Origin: an uncultured Erysipelotrichaceae bacterium
Lineage (GTDB): Bacteria; Bacillota_I; Bacilli_A; Erysipelotrichales; Erysipelotrichaceae
Length of the DNA: 37,620 nt
Direction of reading: 5' to 3'
NCBI GenBank assembly: GCA_944326095.1
Contig: CALVCO010000012.1
Span: 1-37,620, forward strand
This document shows, one piece after another, positions 1,200 through 29,633 of the stretch (within the stretch, counting starts at the first letter, position 1; each line of letters starts with the position of its first letter). The translations under genes and the position numbers were made by a program. The notes under the pieces are model-generated. The model made no database searches, had not been told where the DNA came from, and saw only the letters and a list, made by a program, of their open reading frames with translations.

Positions 1200-2174
1200 A
1201 TGGAAGATGCATTATGCGTAATTGGGGAGGCATTAATTGATTTTATTCCTCAAGAAAAGAATTGTCGTTTAAAGGATGTTAATGGCTTTACAAAAGCAGC
1301 AGGAGGAGCAGTTGCTAATGTAGCTGGTACGGTAGCAAAGCTTGGCATTAAAGCTAAATTATTAACTAAAGTTGGTAAAGATCCTTTTGGTGATTATCTT
1401 TTGGAATGCATGAAAAAACAAAATATTGATATATCTTATGTTAAGCAAACATCATTATATGATACTTCATTGGCCTTTGTTTCTTTAGATGATAAAGGGA
1501 ATAGGGATTTTAAATTTTATCGTAAAACGGCAGCTGATTTAGCATATGCTATAGAAGATATTGATGAAAGTTGTTTAGATGATGTTAAAATTATTCATTT
1601 TTGTAGTGTAGATTTAGTACCTTCCGCAATGAAAGAAGCTCATAAATATTTATTAGAATTAGCTAAAAAGCATAATATATTAATTAGTTTTGATCCTAAT
1701 TTGCGTTTTTCTTTATGGGATGATTTAAACTTATTAAAAGAAACCGTCTTAGAATTCATGAAATATGCTAATATTATTAAAATATCTGATGAAGAATTAG
1801 CTTTTATAACTGGATGTAATAATATTAATGAAGCTAAAGATAGTATCTTAAAAGATAATTGTGAACTATTAATTTATACTAAAGGTAAAGATGGAGCAGA
1901 AATATTTACAAAAAATAATCATTTAGCAATTGATGGTTTAAATGTTAAAGCTATTGATACCACAGGAGCTGGGGATAGTTTTATAGGCGCTTTTATTTAT
2001 CAATTATTAAAAAATAAAGATTATGATTTAGCTAATATTGCAAAAGAAAGATTAGAAGAATATTTAAAATTCGCTAATTATTATGGAGCATATATGACCA
2101 GTGTTGAAGGAGCTTTAGCTTCATTAGCTGATCAAAAAACTATCGATGAATTTATTAAATTGGTAAATTCTTAA
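1200..2174 (+). CDS. scrK: PfkB-family sugar kinase, probable fructokinase
   Basis: A cytoplasmic ribokinase-fold kinase that would phosphorylate fructose at C6 with ATP. It starts with the family's N-terminal strand CVIGEALIDFIP (residues 6-17; the Asp-14 region binds sugar). It has the Gly-Gly-x-x-x-Asn signature at 35-40 and a central FDPNLR motif, and ends with the PfkB C-terminal signature DTTGAGDS (253-260), in which Asp-259 is the catalytic base and GAG forms the anion hole. Its 324 residues match full-length fructokinases. AAAGGAG lies 7 bases before the ATG. No sugar transporter or invertase lies nearby, so the substrate (fructose, or another ketose or nucleoside) rests on family resemblance. 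The 3' end overlaps the convergent acyltransferase gene by 20 bases. Confidence 0.85.
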   Translation: MEDALCVIGEALIDFIPQEKNCRLKDVNGFTKAAGGAVANVAGTVAKLGIKAKLLTKVGKDPFGDYLLECMKKQNIDISYVKQTSLYDTSLAFVSLDDKGNRDFKFYRKTAADLAYAIEDIDESCLDDVKIIHFCSVDLVPSAMKEAHKYLLELAKKHNILISFDPNLRFSLWDDLNLLKETVLEFMKYANIIKISDEELAFITGCNNINEAKDSILKDNCELLIYTKGKDGAEIFTKNNHLAIDGLNVKAIDTTGAGDSFIGAFIYQLLKNKDYDLANIAKERLEEYLKFANYYGAYMTSVEGALASLADQKTIDEFIKLVNS

Positions 2175-3366
2175 ATTGCTTTTTTAATTTAATTAATATT
2201 AATGATAAAAGATGTGTAATAGCTAAAACTAAAAATATTTGCCAATAAGGATTGCTATAAATATTTAGAATTTGAAATTTAAATAATAAATAAATGATCA
2301 TAGGATGGACAATATAATAATATTTAGAATAGCCACGGAAGTTAATTTTCGTGGTCTTTTTACTTATGAATATTACACTAACAAATAAAAAATAAGTTAA
2401 AGGTATACATGAAAGTAAGATATTACTATTTAAACGTTCGGTATTGCGTAATAATACAGCTTCTAAAGCTAATAAAAATATAGAAATTATTAAAAGGATA
2501 AAACAATGATTAGTTACTAATTTGTCTTTTTTACCTATCCAATATCCTAATACGGTATAGAATAGACCAAAGAATAGAAAGTTACGGGTAGTTATAAAAA
2601 TATCAAAATAGAATTTGATAATTTGGGTAATAGCTAAAGGTAATATGCCATAATAAGTTTCTGTGGCGCCAAATAATAATAGAATAAAAGAAATAATTAA
2701 TAAGTATTTTAATTTAAAATGCTTTTTCCATTTATTTAAGACTAAAAGCGATAATATTACTGCTGGAAAATACCATAGATGATAATATATGCCAGCATAT
2801 ACTAAGGCAACAAGCATTACTAAAGGAAAACCAATGACCATTAAGGGAATAAATAATATATCAGGAATTCTTTCAAGATAACTCATGATAAAAAGACGAT
2901 TATCATAAGCATAAGAAATTAGGATAGGTAAGTAGGCTAAGCTATATATTAAATATGAAGGAATCATTTTTTTACAATAGCTAATAATATAATTAGGATT
3001 ATCTTTTTCTTTTTTGGCTACAAAATAACCAGTAATCATAAAAAAGATAGGTACACATATTCTAGTAATAATATTATTAAAAGCAAAATCTACATTAGGA
3101 TAGTAATAATGTAAAAAAGGGCGTAAATGTAGAATTAATATTAAAATAGCGCAAATATATTTTAGAATATCTAAATTATTATAATTAATATGATTATTTA
3201 AAGCATTTTTATCAATATTATTTTGAATATACATCGTTAAAAAGCTAATAATAATTATGCAAATAAATAGGGCAATATAATTTACTTGCCACTTATTTAA
3301 ATAACAAAGTAATAATGATAATAGACTAATGACTAAAGTGATGATAATGGCATTTTTATTTCTCAT
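2155..3366 (-). CDS. Acyltransferase-3 family membrane protein
   Basis: An integral membrane acyltransferase of 403 residues with about ten hydrophobic segments. Two N-terminal helices (about 7-50) precede the acyltransferase-3 core. The core begins LDILKYICAILILILHLRPF; its His is the family's conserved catalytic His, here followed by Arg. The third core helix carries RICVPIFFMITGYF, also typical. Members transfer acetyl or other acyl groups from the cytoplasm to cell-surface glycans, peptidoglycan or teichoic acids. No extracellular SGNH domain is fused, unlike OatA, so the acceptor is unknown. The extra N-terminal helix pair resembles that of VanT/WecH-like members. The gene has a TATAAT -10 on its own strand at 3393-3398 and an AAGAAAG ribosome site. 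Confidence 0.8.
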   Translation of the reverse strand: MRNKNAIIITLVISLLSLLLCYLNKWQVNYIALFICIIIISFLTMYIQNNIDKNALNNHINYNNLDILKYICAILILILHLRPFLHYYYPNVDFAFNNIITRICVPIFFMITGYFVAKKEKDNPNYIISYCKKMIPSYLIYSLAYLPILISYAYDNRLFIMSYLERIPDILFIPLMVIGFPLVMLVALVYAGIYYHLWYFPAVILSLLVLNKWKKHFKLKYLLIISFILLLFGATETYYGILPLAITQIIKFYFDIFITTRNFLFFGLFYTVLGYWIGKKDKLVTNHCFILLIISIFLLALEAVLLRNTERLNSNILLSCIPLTYFLFVSVIFISKKTTKINFRGYSKYYYIVHPMIIYLLFKFQILNIYSNPYWQIFLVLAITHLLSLILIKLKKQFKNLPI

Positions 3367-5773: not shown

Positions 5774-5920
5774 ATGATTGATTTAATTGTTTTAGGGATA
5801 ATAGTGCTTATTGTAGGATTTGCTTTAGGATATATAATTAAAGAAAAGAAACAAGGTTCAAAGTGTATAGGTTGTCCATTTGCTAAAACATGTGCTAAAA
5901 AACGTCATAATAATTATTAA
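5774..5920 (+). CDS. FeoB-associated Cys-rich membrane protein
   Basis: A 48-residue protein, three bases after feoB. One N-terminal TM helix (MIDLIVLGIIVLIVGFALGY) leads to a basic stretch and a small Cys cluster, C-I-G-C-P-F-A-K-T-C, with Cys at 34, 37 and 42. This matches the short FeoB-associated Cys-rich membrane proteins that take the place of FeoC in many Firmicutes. It may help assemble or gate FeoB or handle Fe(II) at the inner face; the role is not established. No strong ribosome site is visible, so it is probably translated by coupling to feoB. Confidence 0.75.
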   Translation: MIDLIVLGIIVLIVGFALGYIIKEKKQGSKCIGCPFAKTCAKKRHNNY

Positions 5921-5948
5921 GATTCATCGCTTAGATGGATCTTTTTTT
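5921..5948 (+). terminator. Intrinsic terminator of the feo operon
   Basis: GATTCATC (5921-5928) pairs with GATGGATC (5934-5941), one G-T wobble, loop GCTTA, followed by seven T. It begins directly after the stop codon of the Cys-rich gene. Confidence 0.8.
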
Positions 5949-5973
5949 GATATTATTATATAAAGGTGATTAT

Positions 5974-6612
5974 ATGAAAATTAAAAGATTTATTATCACT
6001 ATAGTTATACTAATTGCTTGTTCAATTATTTTTTGTTATCAAAATACTTCAAATTATCGATTAGCTAATTTATATGATGTTAATATCGAAATAGTTAAAA
6101 TAGGTAATGATGAAGATAATGATGGCATTGATGATCAATTGGATATTTTGCAAGGAGCAATAGATTATATAAATACAAACCCAAAATATAAGAGTAAATA
6201 TTACCAAAATGGTTATACCGATGATGGTTATGGCACTTGTACAGATGTGGTTGCCTATGCCTTTAAAAATGCTGGGTATGATTTAAGAGAATTGGTAGAT
6301 GAAGATATTCATAAGTATCCAGATGATTATGATATAGTAATTATTGATAAAAATATAGATTTTCGCAGAGTTAAAAATCTAGAAATCTTTTTTAAACATA
6401 ATGCATTATCACTAACTACAGATATAGCTGATATAACTTCTTGGCAAGCTGGTGATGTGGTTATTTTTGATAATCACATAGGCATAGTATCTGATAGAAG
6501 AAATAGGAAAGGTATTCCATATATAATTCATCACAGTGGTCCTTGGCAAAGAAGTTATGAAGAAGATGTTTTAGAAAAATATAAAGTGATTGGACATTAT
6601 CGAATAAAATGA
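5974..6612 (+). CDS. DUF1287 family extracytoplasmic protein
   Basis: A 212-residue protein with an N-terminal hydrophobic segment (about 5-21), so either secreted or anchored. The body matches my memory of DUF1287, a papain/NlpC-P60-like fold: GTCTDVVAYAF with Cys-89 as candidate nucleophile, NIDFRRVKNLEIFF, a WQAGDVVIFDNHIGIVSD segment supplying the candidate His, and a closing HHSGPW...IGHYR. Members are usually annotated as unknown; cell-wall amidase activity is a guess from the fold. DEDNDGIDD at 46-54 resembles a calcium-binding loop of the dockerin/thrombospondin type. I chose this ATG, not one 13 codons upstream, because AAAGGTG lies 6 bases before it and the upstream ATG falls inside the feo terminator. 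Confidence 0.75.
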   Translation: MKIKRFIITIVILIACSIIFCYQNTSNYRLANLYDVNIEIVKIGNDEDNDGIDDQLDILQGAIDYINTNPKYKSKYYQNGYTDDGYGTCTDVVAYAFKNAGYDLRELVDEDIHKYPDDYDIVIIDKNIDFRRVKNLEIFFKHNALSLTTDIADITSWQAGDVVIFDNHIGIVSDRRNRKGIPYIIHHSGPWQRSYEEDVLEKYKVIGHYRIK

Positions 6613-6880: not shown

Positions 6881-6908
6881 TTGAAAAAAATGTTTAATTT
6901 GCTATAAT
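6881..6908 (+). promoter_or_regulatory. Promoter of the small RNA
   Basis: TTGAAA (6881-6886), 16-bp spacer, TATAAT (6903-6908) with the extended TGC in front. One of the best sigma-A promoters in the window, and no coding gene follows it on this strand until past 8200. Confidence 0.75.
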
Positions 6909-6914
6909 TGTTGT

Positions 6915-7030
6915 ACCGAAGCAATATGCTTGACTGGTCAATGATTAGTGAATGGTAAAATACTAAGCGTATGTTAAGTACGTCTTCCTAATCAGGAGCT
7001 CATTCTTTGATTAAAGGGTGAGCTTTTTTT
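6915..7030 (+). ncRNA. Free-standing structured small RNA next to a DUF3800 gene
   Basis: About 115 nt between a strong promoter and a strong terminator, with no open reading frame of note. Local stems are AAGCA/TGCTT (6919-6923, 6927-6931), TTAGTG/TACTAA (6945-6950, 6961-6966, one wobble), CGTA/TACG (6968-6971, 6979-6982) and TTCCT/AGGAG (6985-6989, 6994-6998). The terminator is a 12-bp stem (6997-7008 with 7013-7024) closed by GATT and followed by T's to 7030. It is not 6S, 4.5S, tmRNA or RNase P RNA as far as I can see. The neighbour, convergent on the other strand, is a DUF3800 gene. Several structured RNA motifs associated with DUF3800 genes are known to me from comparative genomics, so this may be a member or a new one. 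Confidence 0.65.
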
Positions 7031-7778
7031 AGTTTGGAAGTCTAAGGATTATGTCTATTTTAAAGTTTTCTTTTAACTTCTTATTTGCACTTTCCCAATC
7101 ACTAGTAATAACAAAAGTTTGGCGAATAGTATTTGCAATTATGTCAGCCATTTGAATTGCACAATCTTTTTTAGAGTCTTTATATATTACTTCTACTTGT
7201 AAATCTCCGTATATGATAGGTTTAAAGCATTTTGCATAATTGTAATTGATAATACCATATTTCAATTCTTCAATAAGGCCTTCTCGTAAAGAATAATATC
7301 CATTAGATTTAGTTGGCATTTGATCAATGTTGATATGTAAATATATTGGCATATTAGGATTGATTGATTTATCTTTAATTAAATAGTTAACTGAATTTTT
7401 AATTATTCTTCTTTGAGCATATTCACTGAACCTTCCTTTTGAATTTTTGTTTGTTATAATTTCGCTAGATAAGTTTTTGTTATAAATTATTGTAGAAAAA
7501 GTTGTAAATTGTTTACTCAAATTTATTAATCTTCGCCTATCTTTATTACTTATAATAATTCCTTTTATTTCTGGGCAAATATGGTTGCAACTACTTATTT
7601 CATTATTGCAGTATTGGCATTTGATATTTTTAATGATTGACTTGTATTTGTTTATAAATTTTGACTTCTCATTAGAATTTTTAAAAATAATACCAGCAAA
7701 AATAGCGAAATCTTCATATTTTGAAATTTTACCTGAATCATCCATGTTGATATATATGTGTTGTATGTTTTTGACCAT
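7029..7778 (-). CDS. DUF3800 domain protein
   Basis: A 249-residue soluble protein. It opens HIYINMDDSGK (residues 7-17); the strand with Asp-13/Asp-14 then Ser-Gly matches the YxDESG start of DUF3800, an RNase H-like fold with acidic active-site residues. Asp-152 in HINIDQMP and the C-terminal AIQMADIIAN (Asp-212) supply the other acidic positions. A Cys cluster C54-x2-C57-x6-C64-x3-C68 between strands looks like an inserted zinc-binding loop. Function is unknown; a nuclease is suggested by the fold only. There is no Shine-Dalgarno: the start codon directly follows a run of A. The stop codon lies in the T-tract of the convergent small RNA's terminator. Confidence 0.75.
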   Translation of the reverse strand: MVKNIQHIYINMDDSGKISKYEDFAIFAGIIFKNSNEKSKFINKYKSIIKNIKCQYCNNEISSCNHICPEIKGIIISNKDRRRLINLSKQFTTFSTIIYNKNLSSEIITNKNSKGRFSEYAQRRIIKNSVNYLIKDKSINPNMPIYLHINIDQMPTKSNGYYSLREGLIEELKYGIINYNYAKCFKPIIYGDLQVEVIYKDSKKDCAIQMADIIANTIRQTFVITSDWESANKKLKENFKIDIILRLPN

Positions 7779-8262: not shown

Positions 8263-8364
8263 ATGCATAATATAAATATTATTGCTAAAATAAAAGGGAC
8301 AAGTAAAGAAGAATATGCAAAGTTAACTCATTTTGTTAATTTAGATAAAAAGGAGAAGAAATAA
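8263..8364 (+). CDS. Small protein of unknown function (33 aa), prophage remnant
   Basis: ATG preceded by ATGGAG at 5-base spacing. The product is 33 residues and strongly basic at the C-terminus (NLDKKEKK), with no TM segment or motif I know. Its stop codon overlaps the next start codon (TAATG), so the two are probably translationally coupled. It may be a shortened version of a larger phage protein. Confidence 0.45.
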   Translation: MHNINIIAKIKGTSKEEYAKLTHFVNLDKKEKK

Positions 8365-8714
8365 TGAATAATATGTATGGTGGAGAATGCATTGTTCCTA
8401 TAAATGAGATTGGTATAAAAGAATTAGATGATATGTCTATTGAAAATTCAAAAAATAGAATAGTTTTTAAAATATCACAAGAAGAAACAGATGATTTTTT
8501 TGATATAGATGGTTATGGGCCTTATGTACATTTTTTCGATTTAGATTCATTAGCGTTTGAAATAGATATGGCAGAAACAGGATTGATTCCATATGAATAT
8601 TTAGGACGTTGTTTAGCCATTATGCAACAACATGGTAAATTTCCTGATGGTGCTATTGCGCAAGCATTAAAAACAGCTTTAAATTATGGCACTTGTGTTG
8701 AAGTTACATTTTAA
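8364..8714 (+). CDS. Hypothetical acidic protein (116 aa), prophage remnant
   Basis: Not recognised. A soluble, markedly acidic protein of 116 residues: an N-terminal strand-rich part, an Asp/Glu-rich middle (QEETDDFFDIDGYG), and a helical C-terminal half with LGRCLAIMQQHGKFPDG followed by AIAQALKTAL. No TM segment. AAGGAG lies 8 bases before the ATG. It is coupled to the 33-residue gene upstream and followed after 34 bases by the YjcQ remnant. The gene lies among phage fragments but its own reading frame is intact. Confidence 0.65.
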   Translation: MNNMYGGECIVPINEIGIKELDDMSIENSKNRIVFKISQEETDDFFDIDGYGPYVHFFDLDSLAFEIDMAETGLIPYEYLGRCLAIMQQHGKFPDGAIAQALKTALNYGTCVEVTF

Positions 8715-8748
8715 TGAAAACAATTCGTGTTCTTTAGGAGAATAAAAC

Positions 8749-21433: not shown

Positions 21434-22126
21434 ATGATCGAATTAACAAATGTTAACAAGACTTATAAAAATGGGGTTAATGCCCTACATAATGTCAATT
21501 TAACTATCAATCAAGGAGAATTTGTTTATATCATTGGGCCTACAGGCTCAGGTAAGTCTACCTTGATCAAACTATTAGATGGGGAAGAGATACCTTCATC
21601 TGGTACAGTAAAGGTTGTAGGAATCAATGTAGGAAAATTACGTCATAATAAAGTTCCTTTATATCGAAGAAATATTGGTGTTGTCTTTCAAGATTATCGC
21701 TTGCTACCTAAGAAGACCGTCTTCGAAAATATTTCTTATGCCTTAGAAGTTATCAACATGCGCAAAGATGCGATTAGACATCGTGTGCGTAGAGTAATGA
21801 ACCTAGTTTCGCTTGATGATAAGGGCAATTCTTTTCCTAGTGAATTATCTGGTGGTCAACAACAGAGGGTAGCGATTGCTAGAGCGATAGCTAATCGTCC
21901 TAAGGTATTGATTGCGGATGAGCCTACAGGTAATCTTGATCCTGCTAAGTCGGATGAAATCATGACTTTATTAGAAAAGATTAATCGTGAAGAAGGTACT
22001 ACTATCTTGATGGTTACGCATGATCTTACTTTAGTAAATAAACATCGCAAAAGAACGATATCACTAGAAAATGGGCATATCGTAGCGGATATGGAAGATG
22101 GAGGCTACATGCAACATGTTAAGTAG
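21434..22126 (+). CDS. ftsE: FtsE, ATPase of the FtsEX complex
   Basis: 230 residues, cytoplasmic. Walker A GPTGSGKST (35-43), Q-loop GVVFQDYRLLPKKTVFENI typical of FtsE, signature LSGGQQQR, Walker B VLIADEPTGNLD and a TILMVTHD switch. FtsE drives FtsX to activate a wall hydrolase outside the membrane during division. Here that hydrolase gene follows ftsX directly. GGAG lies about 8 bases before the ATG. The ftsE stop lies inside the start region of ftsX. Confidence 0.95.
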   Translation: MIELTNVNKTYKNGVNALHNVNLTINQGEFVYIIGPTGSGKSTLIKLLDGEEIPSSGTVKVVGINVGKLRHNKVPLYRRNIGVVFQDYRLLPKKTVFENISYALEVINMRKDAIRHRVRRVMNLVSLDDKGNSFPSELSGGQQQRVAIARAIANRPKVLIADEPTGNLDPAKSDEIMTLLEKINREEGTTILMVTHDLTLVNKHRKRTISLENGHIVADMEDGGYMQHVK

Positions 22127-23021
22127 AATTTTTAGACCGATAAAAGAAGGTTTTTTTGGAGTAGGTCGTCATGCAGCGATGTCTTTGTCGAGTGCTAGTG
22201 CGGTTACGATTACCTTATTTATCATTGGTATATTTTTAATATTTACAGCTAATGTTCAATCATTTACGCTTAATATTGAACAAAGTATGGAAATATCGGT
22301 ATTGATTGATTATGATCATGAACAACAAGAACAATTAGATGCGATAGGTTTAGCTATTGGCAATATAGATGGAGTTAGAAGTGTAAATTTCTCCGATAAA
22401 GATCAAGAATTTCAATATTATATCGATAGCTTTGAAGATGAAGAGGAACAAGCAATCTTTGAACCATTTAGAGAAGATAATCCGATGCATCATGCATATT
22501 ATGTTGAAGTATATGATGGTGATAATCTAGAGACTATAGCTAATCAAATAAGTCAAATTGAAGGAGTTTATGAAGTTAACTATGGTGGTGAAAGTAGTGT
22601 TACCTTAGTTAATGTAATTAATAGTGTTAGAAATGGAGGAGCTATTTTAGCTATTGCCTTGAGTTTATTGGCTGTATTCTTAATTCAAAATACGATTAAG
22701 GTTACTATTTTAGCTCGTGCAGATGAGATTGCTATAATGCGTAATGTTGGAGCTAAAAATGGTTTTATTCGTTCACCATTTTTAGTAGAAGGAATTATCA
22801 TTGGTATTCTTGGAGCTATAATTCCTATTCTTTGTATGATTTTTGGTTATATCTATTTATATGATGCTTTGGGAGGAGTAGTTATTAGTAATATGTTTAC
22901 ATTAATAGCTCCACATCCTTTTGTATTATATTTAGCTTTAATTTTAATTGGTGTTGGTATTGTAGTTGGTTTTATTGGTAGTTGGTTGTCAGTTAATAAA
23001 TATTTGAGGTGGAAGCGATGA
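22116..23021 (+). CDS. ftsX: FtsX, membrane subunit of FtsEX
   Basis: 301 residues. A cytoplasmic start (LSRIFRPIKEGFFGVGRH), TM1 at about 27-49, an extracellular loop of about 120 residues that should contact the hydrolase, then three TM helices closing with SVNKYLRWKR. The first helix's SSASAVTITLFIIG motif is family-typical. I prefer this ATG to one six codons upstream because TGGAGG lies 11 bases before it and family members begin at this point. It overlaps ftsE by 11 bases and the hydrolase gene by 4. Confidence 0.93.
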   Translation: MLSRIFRPIKEGFFGVGRHAAMSLSSASAVTITLFIIGIFLIFTANVQSFTLNIEQSMEISVLIDYDHEQQEQLDAIGLAIGNIDGVRSVNFSDKDQEFQYYIDSFEDEEEQAIFEPFREDNPMHHAYYVEVYDGDNLETIANQISQIEGVYEVNYGGESSVTLVNVINSVRNGGAILAIALSLLAVFLIQNTIKVTILARADEIAIMRNVGAKNGFIRSPFLVEGIIIGILGAIIPILCMIFGYIYLYDALGGVVISNMFTLIAPHPFVLYLALILIGVGIVVGFIGSWLSVNKYLRWKR

Positions 23022-24385
23022 AAAAATTTTTTAAAACATTGCTAGTGATACTATTATTAGTAGGTAATATCAATATTGTATTTGCTGAGGATGATTATGC
23101 GACAAATAGCCAATATTATGAAGATTTATGTACTGGTGGTAATGAGCTTACTGATGAACAAAAAGCAGCTTGTGAGGGTTATCGAGCTTATTTAGCACAA
23201 CAGACTAGTTCGATGCAAGAACAATTAGCGCAAATTGAAGCTCAACGTGAAGAAATTGCTGCTAATATTCAAGAATATGCGCAAAAGATTAGAGATTATG
23301 ATGCGCAAATTGAGACTTTAAATGGTCAAATTGCTTCATTAAATAATGAAATTTTAGTAGTGCAAGCACAAATAGATGAGAAGCAAGCAGAGATAGATGC
23401 TAAACAAGCAGAAATTGATAGTTTAAAGGGTAAGATTGAAGATCGTATGGTTGCTTCCCAATCTAGTATGCGCTTAAATAAATATATTGATTTATTGATG
23501 GGGGCGCAAAATCTTCAAGATTTGCTTAGAAGAGCTAATGGTATTAAGACAATTAGTGAATATGATCAAAATACCATGGATGAAATTAAATTATTAATTG
23601 AAGAATTAAATGCGATTCAAGCACAATTAGAAAGCGATAAAGCAGAATTAGAAGTAATGAAGCAAGATGTGGTTGCTAAGCAACAACAGGTTGTATATTT
23701 ACGTGAAGAAGCAAGAATTGTAAGAGAAGAATATTTAAAACAAGAAGCAGCTCTAGAGGAACAAGGAAATAAGATAGCGACCGATATTAGCACTATTAAT
23801 GAAACAATGAAAGCTATTAGTGCAGAACTTGGTAATGTGGTTTCAAGTAATGGTTGGACTAGACCAGTTAACTGTGGTATTTATGAAGGAACATGGCATT
23901 ATTCAAGTGGTGGTGTGCATTTAGGTGCAGATTTTTCTACAGCGATGGGTACACCGATATATGCTGTAGGTAATGGTGTTGTCTTAAAGAGTAGTGATGG
24001 TTGTCCAGCTGGTTATCTTGGCAATACTTGTGGAGGATCTGGATCGACAGGCGGAGGCAATCAAGTATATTTATTAACTAGTATCAATGGTAGTTTATAT
24101 GCAGTTAAATATTTACATATGTTAGCTGGTACACCGATTGCGCAAGGAACTATCGTCAGTGCTGGTGATAAGATTGGAGAAGTAGGTACTAGTGGTAATT
24201 CTAGTGGTCCTCATTGCCATATTGAAGTATTTTATCTTGGAACAGGCTCAATTCAAGACTATGCGACTAATTGGAATGGTGACTTATCATTTGGAGCAGG
24301 ATGGAGTAGTGCCGCTTTGAACCGTTTGTGTGAAAATGGGGCAGGAGCACCTTGTCGTATTAGACCTGAATCATTGTGGGGCTAA
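23018..24385 (+). CDS. Coiled-coil M23 endopeptidase, presumed FtsEX-activated wall hydrolase
   Basis: 455 residues. Signal peptide (to about residue 23, VFA|ED), a long coiled coil (about 60-275) rich in repeated QAEIDxKQAEID-type heptads, then an M23/LytM domain with zinc ligands His-301, Asp-305 and His-401, and His-399 also in place. Because all ligands are present, it should itself cut peptidoglycan cross-bridges, unlike EnvC, which has lost them. PcsB and CwlO, the known Gram-positive FtsEX partners, carry CHAP or NlpC/P60 domains instead; here M23 fills that slot. The start is set by AGGTGGAAG and by ATGA overlap with ftsX. Four Cys pairs in the catalytic part suggest disulfides. Confidence 0.9.
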   Translation: MKKFFKTLLVILLLVGNINIVFAEDDYATNSQYYEDLCTGGNELTDEQKAACEGYRAYLAQQTSSMQEQLAQIEAQREEIAANIQEYAQKIRDYDAQIETLNGQIASLNNEILVVQAQIDEKQAEIDAKQAEIDSLKGKIEDRMVASQSSMRLNKYIDLLMGAQNLQDLLRRANGIKTISEYDQNTMDEIKLLIEELNAIQAQLESDKAELEVMKQDVVAKQQQVVYLREEARIVREEYLKQEAALEEQGNKIATDISTINETMKAISAELGNVVSSNGWTRPVNCGIYEGTWHYSSGGVHLGADFSTAMGTPIYAVGNGVVLKSSDGCPAGYLGNTCGGSGSTGGGNQVYLLTSINGSLYAVKYLHMLAGTPIAQGTIVSAGDKIGEVGTSGNSSGPHCHIEVFYLGTGSIQDYATNWNGDLSFGAGWSSAALNRLCENGAGAPCRIRPESLWG

Positions 24386-24400
24386 AATTAGCCCCTTTTT
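24378..24400 (+). terminator. Intrinsic terminator or attenuator after the M23 gene
   Basis: GGGGCTAA (24378-24385) / TTAGCCCC (24388-24395) followed by TTTTT. It overlaps the last codons of the hydrolase gene and lies 18 bases before the S41 protease gene, so it probably lowers expression of the latter. Confidence 0.7.
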
Positions 24401-24418
24401 AAAAGAAGGAATGATGAT

Positions 24419-25909
24419 ATGAGCGATAATAAAAAGAGAATTAAATTACAAAGATACCAATGGCCAGATGAAATATTGGCTAAAAAGAAAGCTCGACGCA
24501 AAAGAATTATTAATATAATAATAGTTATAGTTTTAATATTTGCAGCAATCTCAGGTGGCTATTTCTTAGGTACATTTACTACTAGTCGTTTAGTATCTAA
24601 TGGCTCAAATAATACTAGTAAATTATCTTTAGTATTAGATATGATGAAAGATCAATGGTATTTTGCTGATGAGGTAGACAATGTTGAAGAAACTTTGCTT
24701 GATCAAGCTTTACTAGGAATGACAACATTTGAAGTTGATCCTCATACTTCATATATGACAAGTCAAGAAATTGAAGATTTTTTTGCTAGTATTGATAATG
24801 ATTTTGTTGGTATTGGCGTAAGAGTAAGAAATTATGATACTTATTTAGTAGTCGATAGCGTATTTAAAAATAGTCCAGCTGAAGAAAGTGGCTTGGTAGC
24901 TGGTGATATTATCTTTAGTGTTGATGGTGAACTAGTTAGTGATCATGAATATGAAGATGTAGTAAATATGATCAAAGGTGAAGCAAATACTAAAGTATCA
25001 CTTGGCATAATGCGTGATGATGAAAGAATAAGTATTGATGTAATTCGCCAACAGGTAAATACAACAGTTGATGGTCAAATGTTAGATGAGAATATTGCTT
25101 ATGTAGAATTGAGCAGTTTTGGAGAATTAACTTGTGATCAATTAATTACCTATCTAGATGAATTTGAAGCTCAAGGCGCTAATAAATTATTATTAGATTT
25201 AAGAAATGATGGTGGTGGTCATTTAGGTAGTGTTGTAGATATTGGTGGTTTATTCATTGATAAGGATGAGGTAATTCTTGAACAAGAAGCAGCTGATGGT
25301 ACTATCTTACAATATGTATCAGAAGGTAAACGCCATTATGATTATGATGAAATAGTCATCTTAGTTAATGAATCGACTGCTAGTGCGGCAGAAGTACTTA
25401 CCTTAGCCTTAAAACAACAAGTTGATAATGTTACAATTGTTGGAACAACAACTTATGGTAAAGGTACAATTCAAACAACGGTATATTTATCAGATGGCTC
25501 AGCCTTAAAATATACTACTAGTAAATGGAATGCTCCTGATGGCACTAATATCAATAATGTAGGAATTGTTCCTGATGTTATTGTAGAAATACCAGAGATA
25601 ATAAGTAGTCCATATTATGATATGGAAGATGGCATTACGATTGCTTATGATTCGGTTAATATCATAACGATTCAATTACAAAAGGCCTTAATATATCTAG
25701 GTTATAATGTTGATCGTGAAGATGGTTATTTTGATTTATCTACTGAAGAAGCATTAAAAGCATTTGAAAGTGATAATGGTTTAAATGTTGATGGTATCTT
25801 AGATAAAAATGATAATGAAAAAATATTTATGGCTGTTAGTGAAAAATGGGCATTAGATGAATCGGATGTGCAAAAAAATGCTGCTTTAGATATTTTGTTG
25901 GAAGAATGA
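24419..25909 (+). CDS. S41-family C-terminal processing protease (CtpA/CtpB-like)
   Basis: 496 residues. A basic cytoplasmic tail (to about 30) and one TM helix (about 31-52) place the protease outside. The PDZ domain is at about 120-205 (FVGIGVRVRNYD, SPAEESGLVAGDII). The S41 core has Ser-322 in STASAAE and Lys-348 in YGKGTIQ, the Ser-Lys catalytic dyad. A peptidoglycan-binding domain at about 415-480 (LQKALIYLGYNVDREDGYFD) targets the wall. Proteases of this type trim wall hydrolases or signalling proteins. Its place behind the FtsEX-M23 genes makes the hydrolase a reasonable client; this is inference. AAGGA lies about 9 bases before the ATG. Confidence 0.92.
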   Translation: MSDNKKRIKLQRYQWPDEILAKKKARRKRIINIIIVIVLIFAAISGGYFLGTFTTSRLVSNGSNNTSKLSLVLDMMKDQWYFADEVDNVEETLLDQALLGMTTFEVDPHTSYMTSQEIEDFFASIDNDFVGIGVRVRNYDTYLVVDSVFKNSPAEESGLVAGDIIFSVDGELVSDHEYEDVVNMIKGEANTKVSLGIMRDDERISIDVIRQQVNTTVDGQMLDENIAYVELSSFGELTCDQLITYLDEFEAQGANKLLLDLRNDGGGHLGSVVDIGGLFIDKDEVILEQEAADGTILQYVSEGKRHYDYDEIVILVNESTASAAEVLTLALKQQVDNVTIVGTTTYGKGTIQTTVYLSDGSALKYTTSKWNAPDGTNINNVGIVPDVIVEIPEIISSPYYDMEDGITIAYDSVNIITIQLQKALIYLGYNVDREDGYFDLSTEEALKAFESDNGLNVDGILDKNDNEKIFMAVSEKWALDESDVQKNAALDILLEE

Positions 25910-25926
25910 TAATTTAAAATAGAATT

Positions 25927-25989
25927 AATCCCTGTTTTAAAAAATACTTACTTATTAATTAGTATTTTTATGAAATAGGGATTTTTTTT
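25927..25989 (+). terminator. Two-tier intrinsic terminator of the ftsEX cluster
   Basis: Outer stem AATCCCT (25927-25933) / AGGGATT (25977-25983), inner stem AAAAATACT (25940-25948) / AGTATTTTT (25961-25969), then eight T from 25982. Confidence 0.8.
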
Positions 25990-26065
25990 GAAAAATTTAT
26001 TTATTTGTTGTCACCTAATATTGTTTTATTTCATCTATATTATAGAAGTAGGAGATGAACAATTA

Positions 26066-27457
26066 ATGGTTTTTAGTAGTTTGGAGTTTATATTCTTATT
26101 CATGCCCATTTTTTTTGGATGTTATTATTTAGCTCCACGCTTTATGCTAAATATAATATTACTAATTGGAAGTTTAAGTTTTTATTTTATAGGCACAATA
26201 CATAATCCAGAACATTTTATATTATTTGTTATAAGCATGCTCGTAGATTATAAAATAGGGATATTAATTGAGAAGAATGCAAAAAATAAAAAATTTTTTT
26301 TATTAATAGGAATAATATTTCATGTAATATGTTTATCTATATTTAAATATTTAAATTTTATTACAGCTGAAGTAGGAAAAATTATTAATGATACTAATGT
26401 TTCAACTAATATAATATTACCTATAGGTATTTCATTTTATACATTTCAAGGACTTTCATATATAGTAGATGTATATAGAGGAAAGGTAAAAGCGGAAAAA
26501 AGTTTATTAAGATTTACAGTATATATATCTATGTTTGAACAATTAATAGCTGGCCCTATTGTTACTTATGTTCAAGTTAAAAAAGAATTATATGATAGAA
26601 AAATAAATAAACAAAAGATTATAAATGGAATTTGTATATTTGTTTTTGGACTAGGATTAAAAGTATTGCTTGCTAATCCGCTTGGAAAATTATGGTCACA
26701 AACTTGTAATATTGGTTTTGAAAGTATATCAACTCCATTAGCGTGGATTGCGATTGTTGGGTATTCATTGCAAATATATTTTGATTTTTTTGGTTATTCA
26801 TTGATGGCCATTGGTTTAGGAAAAATGTTAGGATTTAATTTGCCCAAAAATTTCAATCATCCATATCTAAGTAAAACTATGAGTGAGTTTTGGCGAAGAT
26901 GGCATATGACATTAGGAACTTGGTTTAAAGAATATGTATATATACCCCTAGGGGGAAATAGAAAAGGAAAACTAATAACTATTAGAAATCTATTTTTAGT
27001 TTGGCTTTTAACGGGAATATGGCATGGTGCTGGATATAATTTCTTATTGTGGGGTTTTATAATTTTTTTAATAATGATATTTGAAAAATATGTTATAAAA
27101 GATTATTTTAATAAACATCCTTTATGTGGACATTTATATATGATAATTCTAATTCCTATAACTTGGGCAATTTTTTCAATAGAAGATATAAATCAATTAG
27201 GCATATTTTTACAACGATTATTTCCAATATTTGGAAATGGAATATGGTCAATTTTTCGTTATGATTATTTAAAATATTTAAAAATTTATTATCCATTTTT
27301 GATAGTTGGCATTTTATTTTCAACTAAATTTCCTTATCGTATATTAAAAAAATTGAATAAAAGAATTGTATATATACTTATATTTATTATCTTTTCGGCA
27401 AGTTTATATTGCATGTATCGAGGTTTAGACGATCCATTTTTATATTTTAGATTTTAG
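26066..27457 (+). CDS. MBOAT-family O-acyltransferase
   Basis: 463 residues with about ten TM helices. It begins MVFSSLEFIFLFMPIFF, the standard start of AlgI/PatA-type MBOATs. SEFWRRWHMTLGTWFKEYVY (His-280) and GIWHGAGYNFLLWG (His-320) are the family's signatures, His-320 being the presumed catalytic His. These proteins pass acetyl groups across the membrane to an extracytoplasmic glycan; the SGNH-fold neighbour would finish the transfer. I chose this ATG, not a TTG 26 codons upstream, because the longer start lies in a terminator T-run and TAGGAG lies 11 bases before this one. First gene of an operon with an SGNH protein, an ECF sigma factor and its anti-sigma factor. Confidence 0.9.
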   Translation: MVFSSLEFIFLFMPIFFGCYYLAPRFMLNIILLIGSLSFYFIGTIHNPEHFILFVISMLVDYKIGILIEKNAKNKKFFLLIGIIFHVICLSIFKYLNFITAEVGKIINDTNVSTNIILPIGISFYTFQGLSYIVDVYRGKVKAEKSLLRFTVYISMFEQLIAGPIVTYVQVKKELYDRKINKQKIINGICIFVFGLGLKVLLANPLGKLWSQTCNIGFESISTPLAWIAIVGYSLQIYFDFFGYSLMAIGLGKMLGFNLPKNFNHPYLSKTMSEFWRRWHMTLGTWFKEYVYIPLGGNRKGKLITIRNLFLVWLLTGIWHGAGYNFLLWGFIIFLIMIFEKYVIKDYFNKHPLCGHLYMIILIPITWAIFSIEDINQLGIFLQRLFPIFGNGIWSIFRYDYLKYLKIYYPFLIVGILFSTKFPYRILKKLNKRIVYILIFIIFSASLYCMYRGLDDPFLYFRF

Positions 27458-27466
27458 GAGGATAAA

Positions 27467-28255
27467 ATGAAAAAATCAAATGTATTTACAATGTTTATTT
27501 TAGCTATATTTATCATAATGGCGACTATTTTGATGGGGATAGAAAAAATACCATCATTGGCTAAAAGTGAAGAAGAATTTGAAAAACAAGAAATTGTTAA
27601 TGATAAAATAACTGAAGATAAAAATATTTTGGATGAAGCTATTGATGAAACTAAAAAAGAATTGCCTGTTAAAGAAATAGCTATGAATGAAACATTATTT
27701 GTTGGGGATTCTAGAACGGTAGGATTAATGGAATATTCAGGTATTACAGAAGCTATTTATTTTTGTGCTGAAGGAATGAATGTATTTAATATTTATGATA
27801 ATCAAATTTCTGTGCCTAATATTGGAAAAGTAACTTTAATAGAATTATTAGATAATAGAGATTTTAATAAAATTTATATCATGTTAGGACTTAATGAATT
27901 AGGATATGAATTTGATAAGATAATGGAAAAATATCAAGAATTAGTTTTATTTATAAAAGAAAAAGAACAGGCAACTGATATAATACTACTTGGCAATCTT
28001 CATGTTACACAAACACGTTCAGAAAGTGATGAAATATATAATAATGAAGCGATAAATAGGCTTAATAAGGCAATTGCTGAATTAGCTGATAATAATAGCA
28101 TTTATTATTTGGATTCAAATGTTTTATTTGATGATGCCAATGGCGCATTAAATCAAGATAAATCTTCAGATAATACGCATTTATATGCTAAATATTATGA
28201 AGAATGGGGAAAATGGATTAAGGAAAAAACTGCATTACTGGTACAGGGGGAATGA
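27467..28255 (+). CDS. SGNH/GDSL-fold protein, partner of the MBOAT
   Basis: 262 residues. A signal anchor (about 8-25), a charged helical stalk (about 33-70), then an SGNH hydrolase fold with FVGDSRTVGL (Ser-82 nucleophile), a LGLNELG block near the middle (in place of the usual GTND) and DNTHLY (Asp-235, His-238). All three catalytic residues are visible. In PatA/PatB and AlgI/AlgJ-X systems such a protein transfers acetyl groups from the MBOAT to peptidoglycan or polysaccharide. GGAGG lies about 6 bases before the ATG. Nine bases separate it from the MBOAT gene, and it overlaps the sigma gene start by 4. Confidence 0.85.
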   Translation: MKKSNVFTMFILAIFIIMATILMGIEKIPSLAKSEEEFEKQEIVNDKITEDKNILDEAIDETKKELPVKEIAMNETLFVGDSRTVGLMEYSGITEAIYFCAEGMNVFNIYDNQISVPNIGKVTLIELLDNRDFNKIYIMLGLNELGYEFDKIMEKYQELVLFIKEKEQATDIILLGNLHVTQTRSESDEIYNNEAINRLNKAIAELADNNSIYYLDSNVLFDDANGALNQDKSSDNTHLYAKYYEEWGKWIKEKTALLVQGE

Positions 28256-28743
28256 TTTTGAATAAAGAAGAATTTTGTGAAAAGATACATATGTATGAAA
28301 ATTCCATGTACTATTTGGCATTTTCACTTGTAAGAAATGATGCTGATGCAGCAGATGTAATTAGCGAAGCAATATATAGGGCATATAGTAATTTAAATAA
28401 ATTAAAAAATAAAAAATCTTTTAAAGCATGGATATTACAAATTGTTCATAATACAGCAGTTGAAATGATTCGAAAAAATTCTAAAATTGTTCCTATGGAA
28501 GATATTGAAAATAAAATACAGGGAAGTATTCAGTATGATTTAACGACAAAAATAACCTTAAAAGAAGCCATTAATCAATTGAAACATCCTTATCAAACGG
28601 TAGTTATACTTTTTTATTATGAGAATTTATCAATTATAGAAATATCGCGAATTACCAATATAAGTATTGTATCTGTTAAAAAACAGTTGTCTCGCGCAAG
28701 AAAGATGCTTTATGAAGTTCTAAAGGAGGACTTTGATTTATGA
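28252..28743 (+). CDS. ECF-type RNA polymerase sigma factor (SigV-like)
   Basis: 163 residues, two-domain sigma factor. Sigma region 2 covers about 10-75 (NDADAADVISEAIYRAYSNL, then SFKAWILQIVHNTAVEMIRK). Region 4 covers about 105-155 (YYENLSIIEISRITNISIVSVKKQLSRARKML reads as its helix-turn-helix). Length and architecture suit an ECF factor held by a membrane anti-sigma factor, and that partner overlaps its 3' end by 4 bases. The start is uncertain: the ATG at 28252 overlaps the previous stop but is one base from GGGGG, whereas a TTG at 28258 has proper 7-base spacing and costs two residues. The SigV label comes from the neighbour's RsiV-like domain. Confidence 0.85.
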   Translation: MILNKEEFCEKIHMYENSMYYLAFSLVRNDADAADVISEAIYRAYSNLNKLKNKKSFKAWILQIVHNTAVEMIRKNSKIVPMEDIENKIQGSIQYDLTTKITLKEAINQLKHPYQTVVILFYYENLSIIEISRITNISIVSVKKQLSRARKMLYEVLKEDFDL

Positions 28744-29633
28744 ATAGAAAAGATAAATATATTAGAGAAAAATTAAATGAAACTAAAGAAGAAATACCAG
28801 CATCAGTAAAAAATAAAATAGAGAAAACTTTAAATTCACTTCCAGAGCAAAAAAGAGGTGATAGTACTTTTGTGGTATTTAGAAAGTTTGCGATAGCGTG
28901 TTTATGTTTTTTATTTGTAGCAATTATTTTATTGCCTAATATTAGTGTTACGTATGCTGAAACTTTAGAAAAAATACCGGTACTTAAAGAAGTTATTAAG
29001 GTAGTAACCATTAGAAATTATTTTTATGATGATGAATATCATGAAATGAATATTGAAGTTCCAAAAGTTGAGGGTGATAGTGAATCAATAGATTTTATAA
29101 ATGCTGATGTTGAAGAATTAACTAAATATATTGCTGATAAATTTTATGAGGAAGCTAATGATTTAAAAGATGAAGCTCATACGGCAGTTTCTATTAATTA
29201 TGAGGTTGTGGTTGATACTAAAGAATGGTTTACTTTAAAATTACAAATTAATACCATGACAGGTAGTGGAAATACTTTCTTTAAGTATTATAATCTTAAT
29301 AAATTGAATGGTAATATTGTTTCTTTAAATGATATCGTTATAGATGATGAATTTTATAATGTTGTCAAAGAAGAAATTAAATCGCAAATGAAAAAACAAA
29401 TGGAAGATAATCCAGATTTAAAATATTGGATAGATGATTCAGTATTTGGTGATGATTTACTATCGATTGATGCTAAACATAATTATTATTTTAGTAGTAA
29501 TTATGATTTAGTCATACCATTTGAAAAATATGAAGCAGCACCTGGATATATGGGAACATATGAATTTATACTAGATAAAAATTTAATTAAAGATTATATA
29601 AGTGATGAAATTAATGAAATACTGTTTGGATAA
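28740..29633 (+). CDS. RsiV-like anti-sigma factor (DUF3298)
   Basis: 297 residues. A cytoplasmic sigma-binding part (1-47; IPASVKNKIEKTLNSLP), one TM helix (about 48-69), then an extracellular region. A candidate signal peptidase cut, VTYA|E after Ala-73, matches how RsiV is cleaved when it senses lysozyme. The C-terminal half (about 180-290) fits DUF3298: NGNIVSLNDIV, then VIPFEKYEAAPGYMGTYEF, close to the end of RsiV and PdaC. In B. subtilis and C. difficile this domain binds lysozyme directly and starts proteolytic release of SigV. That this one senses lysozyme is inference. Confidence 0.85.
   Translation: MNRKDKYIREKLNETKEEIPASVKNKIEKTLNSLPEQKRGDSTFVVFRKFAIACLCFLFVAIILLPNISVTYAETLEKIPVLKEVIKVVTIRNYFYDDEYHEMNIEVPKVEGDSESIDFINADVEELTKYIADKFYEEANDLKDEAHTAVSINYEVVVDTKEWFTLKLQINTMTGSGNTFFKYYNLNKLNGNIVSLNDIVIDDEFYNVVKEEIKSQMKKQMEDNPDLKYWIDDSVFGDDLLSIDAKHNYYFSSNYDLVIPFEKYEAAPGYMGTYEFILDKNLIKDYISDEINEILFG

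Follow-up and report, generated by a model that had tools for sequence, protein, structure and literature searches.

A candidate SigV/RsiV-type stress operon with an MBOAT-SGNH acyl-transfer pair in an uncultured Erysipelotrichaceae bacterium

The window analysed here, a 37,620-nucleotide stretch of contig CALVCO010000012.1 from an uncultured Erysipelotrichaceae bacterium, contains a tight plus-strand operon encoding, in order, an MBOAT acyltransferase, an SGNH hydrolase-fold partner, an extracytoplasmic function (ECF) sigma factor and an RsiV-like anti-sigma factor (Table 1). With confidence slightly better than even, we read it as a stress operon of the SigV/RsiV type that controls itself and would use the MBOAT-SGNH acyl-transfer pair as its wall protector. 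The predicted operon, its regulation and its enzyme chemistry are well supported at the sequence level; lysozyme is the likely signal, peptidoglycan a fairly probable target and acetyl probably the acyl group. All four open reading frames (ORFs) proposed in an initial annotation were confirmed at the same coordinates, together with their spacing: a 9-base gap between the MBOAT stop (27457) and the SGNH start (27467), followed by 4-base overlaps at the SGNH/sigma (28252-28255) and sigma/anti-sigma (28740-28743) junctions.

Table 1. Features of the operon and its 5′ border, in window positions.
Feature	Position	Strand	Basis
Terminator-like hairpin and T run	25920..25990	+	AATCCCTGTTTTAAAAAATACT...AGTATTTTTATGAAATAGGGATTTTTTTT, about -24 kcal/mol; 3′ end of the upstream S41 protease gene
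ECF-type promoter (predicted)	26009..26037	+	-35 TGTCACC 26009-26015, 16-nt spacer, -10 CATCTA 26032-26037
MBOAT acyltransferase, 463 aa	26066..27457	+	PF03062, DltB structure matches
SGNH hydrolase-fold partner, 262 aa	27467..28255	+	PF13472
ECF sigma factor, SigV-like	28252..28743	+	Sigma70_r2 and r4_2, NCBIfam models
RsiV-like anti-sigma, DUF3298 ectodomain	28740..29633	+	NF052658, PDB 5JEN

The SigV/RsiV-type sensor suggested by the initial annotation was borne out by several comparisons. The anti-sigma protein contains a DUF3298 domain (PF11738, E 7e-11), and its best NCBIfam model is RsiV (NF052658, E 7e-62, residues 15-287), with 209 bits against a curated cut-off of 250 that is not reached. 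The crystal structure of RsiV in complex with lysozyme, 5JEN, is the top PDB match both by sequence (E 7.5e-27) and by fold (Foldseek E 2.8e-11, TMt 0.67-0.70, from a low-confidence query model with a predicted local distance difference test score, pLDDT, of 54). The protein runs from a cytoplasmic N-terminus through a transmembrane helix, a TYA/E site and the amphipathic stretch ETLEKIPVLKEVIKVV to the DUF3298 ectodomain, marked by H147, SGNT (residues 176-179) and YEAAPGYM (29529-29552). The candidate signal peptidase site noticed earlier is real as a motif: T71-Y72-A73/E74 directly follows the helix (Ala73 codon at 28956-28958), and Ala73 is invariant in seven aligned RsiV proteins; Pro80 is invariant as well. 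It aligns with the presumed cut in Clostridioides difficile RsiV, thought to fall at V-X-A, two residues before the Bacillus subtilis site (PMC9044953), and in the stretch behind it, the positions known from B. subtilis to guard the site are still occupied by hydrophobic residues (PMC6066255). The anti-sigma protein has what regulated proteolysis requires, and the genome encodes one M50 site-2 protease. As for the sigma factor, its best NCBIfam model was TIGR02954 (134 bits, cut-off 188.5), and the SigV model gave 114 bits (cut-off 190), both below cut-off; its translation may instead begin at the TTG at 28258, which is better placed behind a GGGGGA box.

We mapped the 17 lysozyme-contacting residues of B. 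subtilis RsiV (PMC5014341, Table 2) onto the window protein and found nine of them identical (H139, S168, T171, D225, Y255, E256, P259, G260 and Y261). Set against an overall identity of 26%, this retention has a hypergeometric P of 0.012, uncorrected for the number of proteins tested. All eight operon-linked RsiV proteins share H139, S168, Y255, E256, P259 and G260. H139, P259 and Y261 are absent from the RsiV-like proteins of congeners that are linked to SGNH-DUF4358 genes without an MBOAT, and these proteins may sense another ligand.

Upstream of the first gene, the sequence TGTCACC-N16-CATCTA ends 28 bases 5′ of the MBOAT start codon, and the more general NGTMMCY-N16-CRTCTW was found with identical spacing in 8/8 four-gene operons, 57-100 bp from the start codon. 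Such a motif is expected by chance at most 0.00025 times per 250-bp upstream region (simulated sequence of the same composition); the eight operons are not fully independent, three Lachnospiraceae loci being close to one another. Exact matches to TGTMACY-N16-CRTCTW occur only twice in the 1.6-Mb genome. Conservation of the motif at a constant spacing across the eight operons, together with its genomic rarity, supports the view that the sigma factor drives transcription of its own operon from this predicted promoter. A looser form of the motif, equally spaced, precedes two related operons (L031 and L032) in which no MBOAT is adjacent. A wider regulon was not recovered in the genome, where allowing at most one mismatch gave 20 sites, fewer than the 38 of a reversed control, and only the operon site is credible; two-mismatch matches within the window carry little information. 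The strong terminator-like hairpin of the S41 gene, which a simple terminator scan missed because its loop exceeds the length allowed there, indicates that the operon is transcriptionally separate.

The MBOAT protein (Pfam E 1.2e-25) has DltB as its nearest solved relative (6BUG/8JEM, E about 1e-19 by sequence and 4e-30 with a profile), and its best NCBIfam model is the DltB one, at 146 bits and far under the cut-off of 375. It bears a catalytic-type His320 (27023-27025) and a C-terminal FLYFRF (27437-27454) corresponding to the FXYXXF acyl-shuttle motif, the Tyr of which receives acetyl in PatA before the SGNH partner transfers it onward (PMC12148441). Across eight aligned homologues, His280, His320 and Tyr460 are invariant and the C-termini read YFRF, except for MYSVF in L009; G510, outside this alignment, has FLYFQF. 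The SGNH partner (Lipase_GDSL_2, E 1.5e-11) begins with a single N-terminal membrane helix (residues 6-23), which a disordered linker joins to a catalytic domain containing S82 (27710-27712, in GDSR), G103, N143, D235 and H238 (28178-28180; DxxH), all four SGNH blocks being invariant in nine homologues. The description of this protein as PatB-like in the initial annotation did not hold. No match to DUF459, the PatB family, was found in it, and only two of the nine homologues match weakly (best E 0.0016). The nearest PDB folds to its AlphaFold model (pLDDT 70) are platelet-activating factor acetylhydrolase (PAF-AH) and sialate O-acetylesterase, and its sequence profile retrieved from the PDB only PAF-AH/GDSL esterases, with no OatA and no PatB. 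Assignment to the DHHW/AlgX (PatB1-type) or DltD proteins was likewise rejected for lack of any such domain match. As judged from these matches, the predicted pair is PatA/PatB-like in design, yet its SGNH half lies outside the PatB family.

The proposal that an MBOAT and an SGNH protein take the role of B. subtilis OatA is supported. The two are encoded by separate genes, and an OatA-type AT3-SGNH fusion is absent from the two AT3 proteins of the genome, one a bare AT3 and the other an AT3-alpha/beta-hydrolase. A search of the genome also returned no DltD (PF04914) and no PdaC domain. With neither DltD nor an AT3-SGNH fusion encoded, wall O-acetylation could plausibly come from the MBOAT-SGNH pair. 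The bare AT3 acyltransferase gene (PF01757), devoid of an SGNH domain, lies in the window at 2155-3366. The AT3 fused to an alpha/beta-hydrolase is found on contig C6 of the same genome (L037:6294-8183) beside two more MBOAT genes, and was rejected as an OatA on account of its partner domain. The genome has three further MBOATs in all, of which at least one is paired with a DHHW/AlgX protein (contig C44).

A search of related genomes for the four-gene order, a check proposed with the initial annotation, found it in seven others: a Eubacteriales metagenome-assembled genome (MAG; L007), three Lachnospiraceae MAGs (L008, L009 and L010), two genomes of the same family as the window, G055 (L025) and G052 (L026), and one of the same order and another family, G510 (L098). 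Its recurrence in seven further genomes argues that the arrangement is not due to chance. The four gene trees broadly agree, although the RsiV tree is weakly resolved and G052 has no intact SGNH. Sequence identity to the window declines along much the same series for the different genes (G055, G052, G510, L007, L008-L010). Of 316 genomes searched across the order, 28 gave any RsiV-like match; among those of the 28 with surroundings read, four, the window included, had the four-gene operon. In three congeners (G111, G132 and G048), uvrB comes immediately after the S41 gene and the operon is missing there, so the whole cassette was acquired or lost in one piece. Low guanine-cytosine content (25% for the operon, 29.6% for the window) was considered as a sign of horizontal transfer and set aside, since membrane and surface genes elsewhere in the genome have equally low values (21-27%).

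Individual loci among these relatives show further variation. The G052 operon copy has an opposite-strand DDE_Tnp_1 transposase (L026:6407-8197) that splits the SGNH gene into ORFs 5897-6334 and 8279-8743 and leaves the MBOAT, sigma and rsiV genes intact. Directly 3′ of rsiV in G055 lie genes for a second ECF sigma factor, two small unassigned products, a further MBOAT and a protein of 366 aa (L025:10036-14095), a candidate second ECF-controlled acylation operon in tandem with the first. The S41-uvrB gap of G111 (L120:2292-2448) contains AAAC-N17-TATCTA, resembling the promoter that precedes the SGNH-DUF4358 operon in that genus, and uvrB is possibly under ECF control there. Operons of the latter kind, encoding SGNH, a DUF4358 lipoprotein, sigma and an RsiV-like protein with no adjacent MBOAT, were seen in same-genus or same-family genomes (L031:390-3000, L032:1692-4357, L033:33-2671 and L034:85-2756); our literature search found no paper on DUF4358 with MBOAT.

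Other RsiV operons of the same order and class (L100, L101 and L103) carry a polysaccharide deacetylase, identified by Pfam in L100 and L103 and inferred in L101 from a near-identical start, together with LbpA-like ectodomains. In L100:8820-11328 and L101:6480-8511, sigV-rsiV is followed by two to three stand-alone RsiV-like ectodomain genes and the deacetylase. Proteins of both types serve lysozyme resistance in C. difficile and E. faecalis (PMC9044953, PMC5014341). These sister operons indicate that the effector is swappable, and we propose one homologous sensor with exchangeable wall-protection enzymes: OatA in B. subtilis, PdaV in C. difficile and MBOAT-SGNH in the window (PMC5014341, PMC9044953). 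The convergent assembly put forward in the initial annotation is wrong for the sensor and fits the effector alone, as the sensor and sigma factor are homologous to RsiV and SigV and only the effector is replaced.

We propose the following mechanism. At rest, the RsiV-like protein would keep the sigma factor at the membrane. Binding of a ligand, most likely c-type lysozyme, to the ectodomain would allow signal peptidase to cut after Ala73, the single M50 site-2 protease would complete the cleavage, and the released sigma factor would transcribe the operon from its predicted promoter. The MBOAT would then charge the Tyr of its terminal FLYFRF motif with an acyl group, probably the acetyl of acetyl-CoA. 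This group would pass to Ser82 of the SGNH protein, which is tethered to the membrane, and from there to a wall polymer, most likely at the MurNAc C6-OH of peptidoglycan, where it would block lysozyme.

Several observations weigh against this interpretation. Sigma and RsiV both remain under the NCBIfam equivalog cut-offs, the RsiV-like structural model is weak (pLDDT 54), and the contact enrichment, its P uncorrected for the proteins tested, is significant in near relatives only. Moreover, Ser169 is replaced by Gly in 7/8 operon-linked RsiV proteins, the window included, and Tyr261 by Ala or Ser in the four more distant ones (L007-L010). These losses would fit an RsiV-like sensor for a different ligand, such as a muramidase of another kind, a hydrolase from a phage or competitor, or a cue of envelope stress, with lysozyme the ligand of its relatives only; membership of DUF3298/DUF4163 is not sufficient for lysozyme binding, Rv1980c being a non-binder (PMC5014341). 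However, while S169W caused the largest loss of lysozyme binding among the B. subtilis RsiV mutations (PMC5014341), Gly at this position is not known to abolish binding because only that bulky substitution was tested, and the contacts invariant in 8/8 proteins, to which the window adds Y261, T171 and D225, make this alternative unlikely. The lysozyme binding foreseen in the initial annotation is therefore supported by the 9/17 contacts kept and left in doubt at residue 169.

The effector pair raises separate concerns, as the SGNH protein has no PatB-family match and is nearest to esterases, and the Gram-positive PatA1/PatB1 of the B. cereus group acts on secondary wall polysaccharide, not peptidoglycan (PMC9487903). 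With the same sensor and regulation, the pair may acylate another surface polymer (secondary wall polysaccharide, a teichoic-acid-like polymer or exopolysaccharide) and hinder lysozyme by charge or sterics instead of blocking MurNAc O-6. Known Gram-positive MBOAT-SGNH pairs, PatA1/PatB1 and DltB/DltD, target such polymers (PMC9487903, PMC12148441), a DHHW/AlgX protein partners at least one of the genome's other MBOATs, and the closest solved relative of the window MBOAT is DltB, in a genome where the lack of DltD makes Dlt charge modification unavailable. On the other hand, the SGNH protein is of neither DHHW/AlgX nor DltD type, and the enzymes that usually accompany RsiV in an operon or regulon, namely, OatA, PdaV and PgdA, work at the level of peptidoglycan (PMC5014341), so that we consider another polymer somewhat unlikely. 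The esterase folds nearest to the SGNH protein, and the congeners in which SGNH-DUF4358-sigma-RsiV genes have no adjacent MBOAT, would also suit an acyl-removing SGNH in an operon that tunes wall turnover rather than resistance, the MBOAT using some other partner. This is quite improbable given that adjacent MBOAT and SGNH genes are co-inherited in eight genomes and that the MBOAT bears the shuttle motif that delivers acyl to the SGNH Ser (PMC12148441).

Elsewhere in the window, the genes 5′ of the operon (21434-25909) form a wall-hydrolysis neighbourhood, with an ABC ATPase/FtsX pair, a PcsB-like M23 peptidase and an S41 protease with a peptidoglycan-binding domain. A DUF3800-I RNA match in Rfam (6908-7035; 51.7 bits, gathering threshold 44.2) adjoins an opposite-strand 249-aa ORF at 7029-7778.

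A 2025 account of MBOAT-SGNH systems holds oatA alone to be necessary and sufficient for peptidoglycan O-acetylation in Gram-positive bacteria (PMC12148441), a division that an RsiV-wired MBOAT-SGNH pair, if true, would break. RsiV would then appear as a plug-in sensor to which varied wall-protection enzymes (OatA, PdaV/PgdA, MBOAT-SGNH) are attached. Our broadest proposal, which we advance tentatively and at somewhat less than even confidence, is that a Gram-positive lineage O-acetylates peptidoglycan by an MBOAT-SGNH pair that a lysozyme receptor controls directly, with a membrane part unrelated to that of OatA and an SGNH from outside the PatB family, as a cassette common to the window's order and Lachnospiraceae-type bacteria and as a third type of RsiV effector beside OatA and the deacetylases. 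The natural variants S169G and Y261A/S provide a testable set for the lysozyme interface. No paper linking sigV/rsiV to an MBOAT was found, a negative limited to the literature searched.

Among known systems, sigV-rsiV-oatA-yrhK of B. subtilis shares with the window a homologous RsiV-type anti-sigma and ECF sigma factor, autoregulation, a wall-modifying enzyme in the operon and a signal-peptidase-type site after the transmembrane helix. Its effector is the fused AT3-SGNH OatA, encoded downstream, whereas the window has an upstream MBOAT and SGNH pair, a signal peptidase site two residues earlier, Gly in place of Ser169 and no DltD in its genome. The C. difficile operon pdaV-prsA2-csfV-rsiV-lbpA resembles the window in having an effector gene 5′ of the sigma/anti-sigma genes and a signal peptidase site that aligns with that of the window (V-X-A against T-Y-A), but encodes the PdaV deacetylase and, as a lysozyme trap, LbpA where the window has MBOAT-SGNH. 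Gram-negative PatA/PatB show the same two-protein division between MBOAT and SGNH, the C-terminal FXYXXF of the MBOAT and the SGNH catalytic blocks; the window differs in its PF13472 rather than DUF459 SGNH, its Gram-positive host and its SigV/RsiV-type switch. PatA1/PatB1 of the B. cereus group are also an MBOAT and SGNH pair in a Gram-positive host, but PatB1 is a DHHW protein with a permuted SGNH core that acts on secondary wall polysaccharide, in contrast to the canonical GDS...N...DxxH of the window. Finally, DltB/DltX/DltD have in common with the window pair the MBOAT fold and a Tyr shuttle to an SGNH Ser, with the difference that the shuttle motif of Dlt resides in the DltX microprotein and that of the window, whose genome has no DltD match, within the MBOAT itself.

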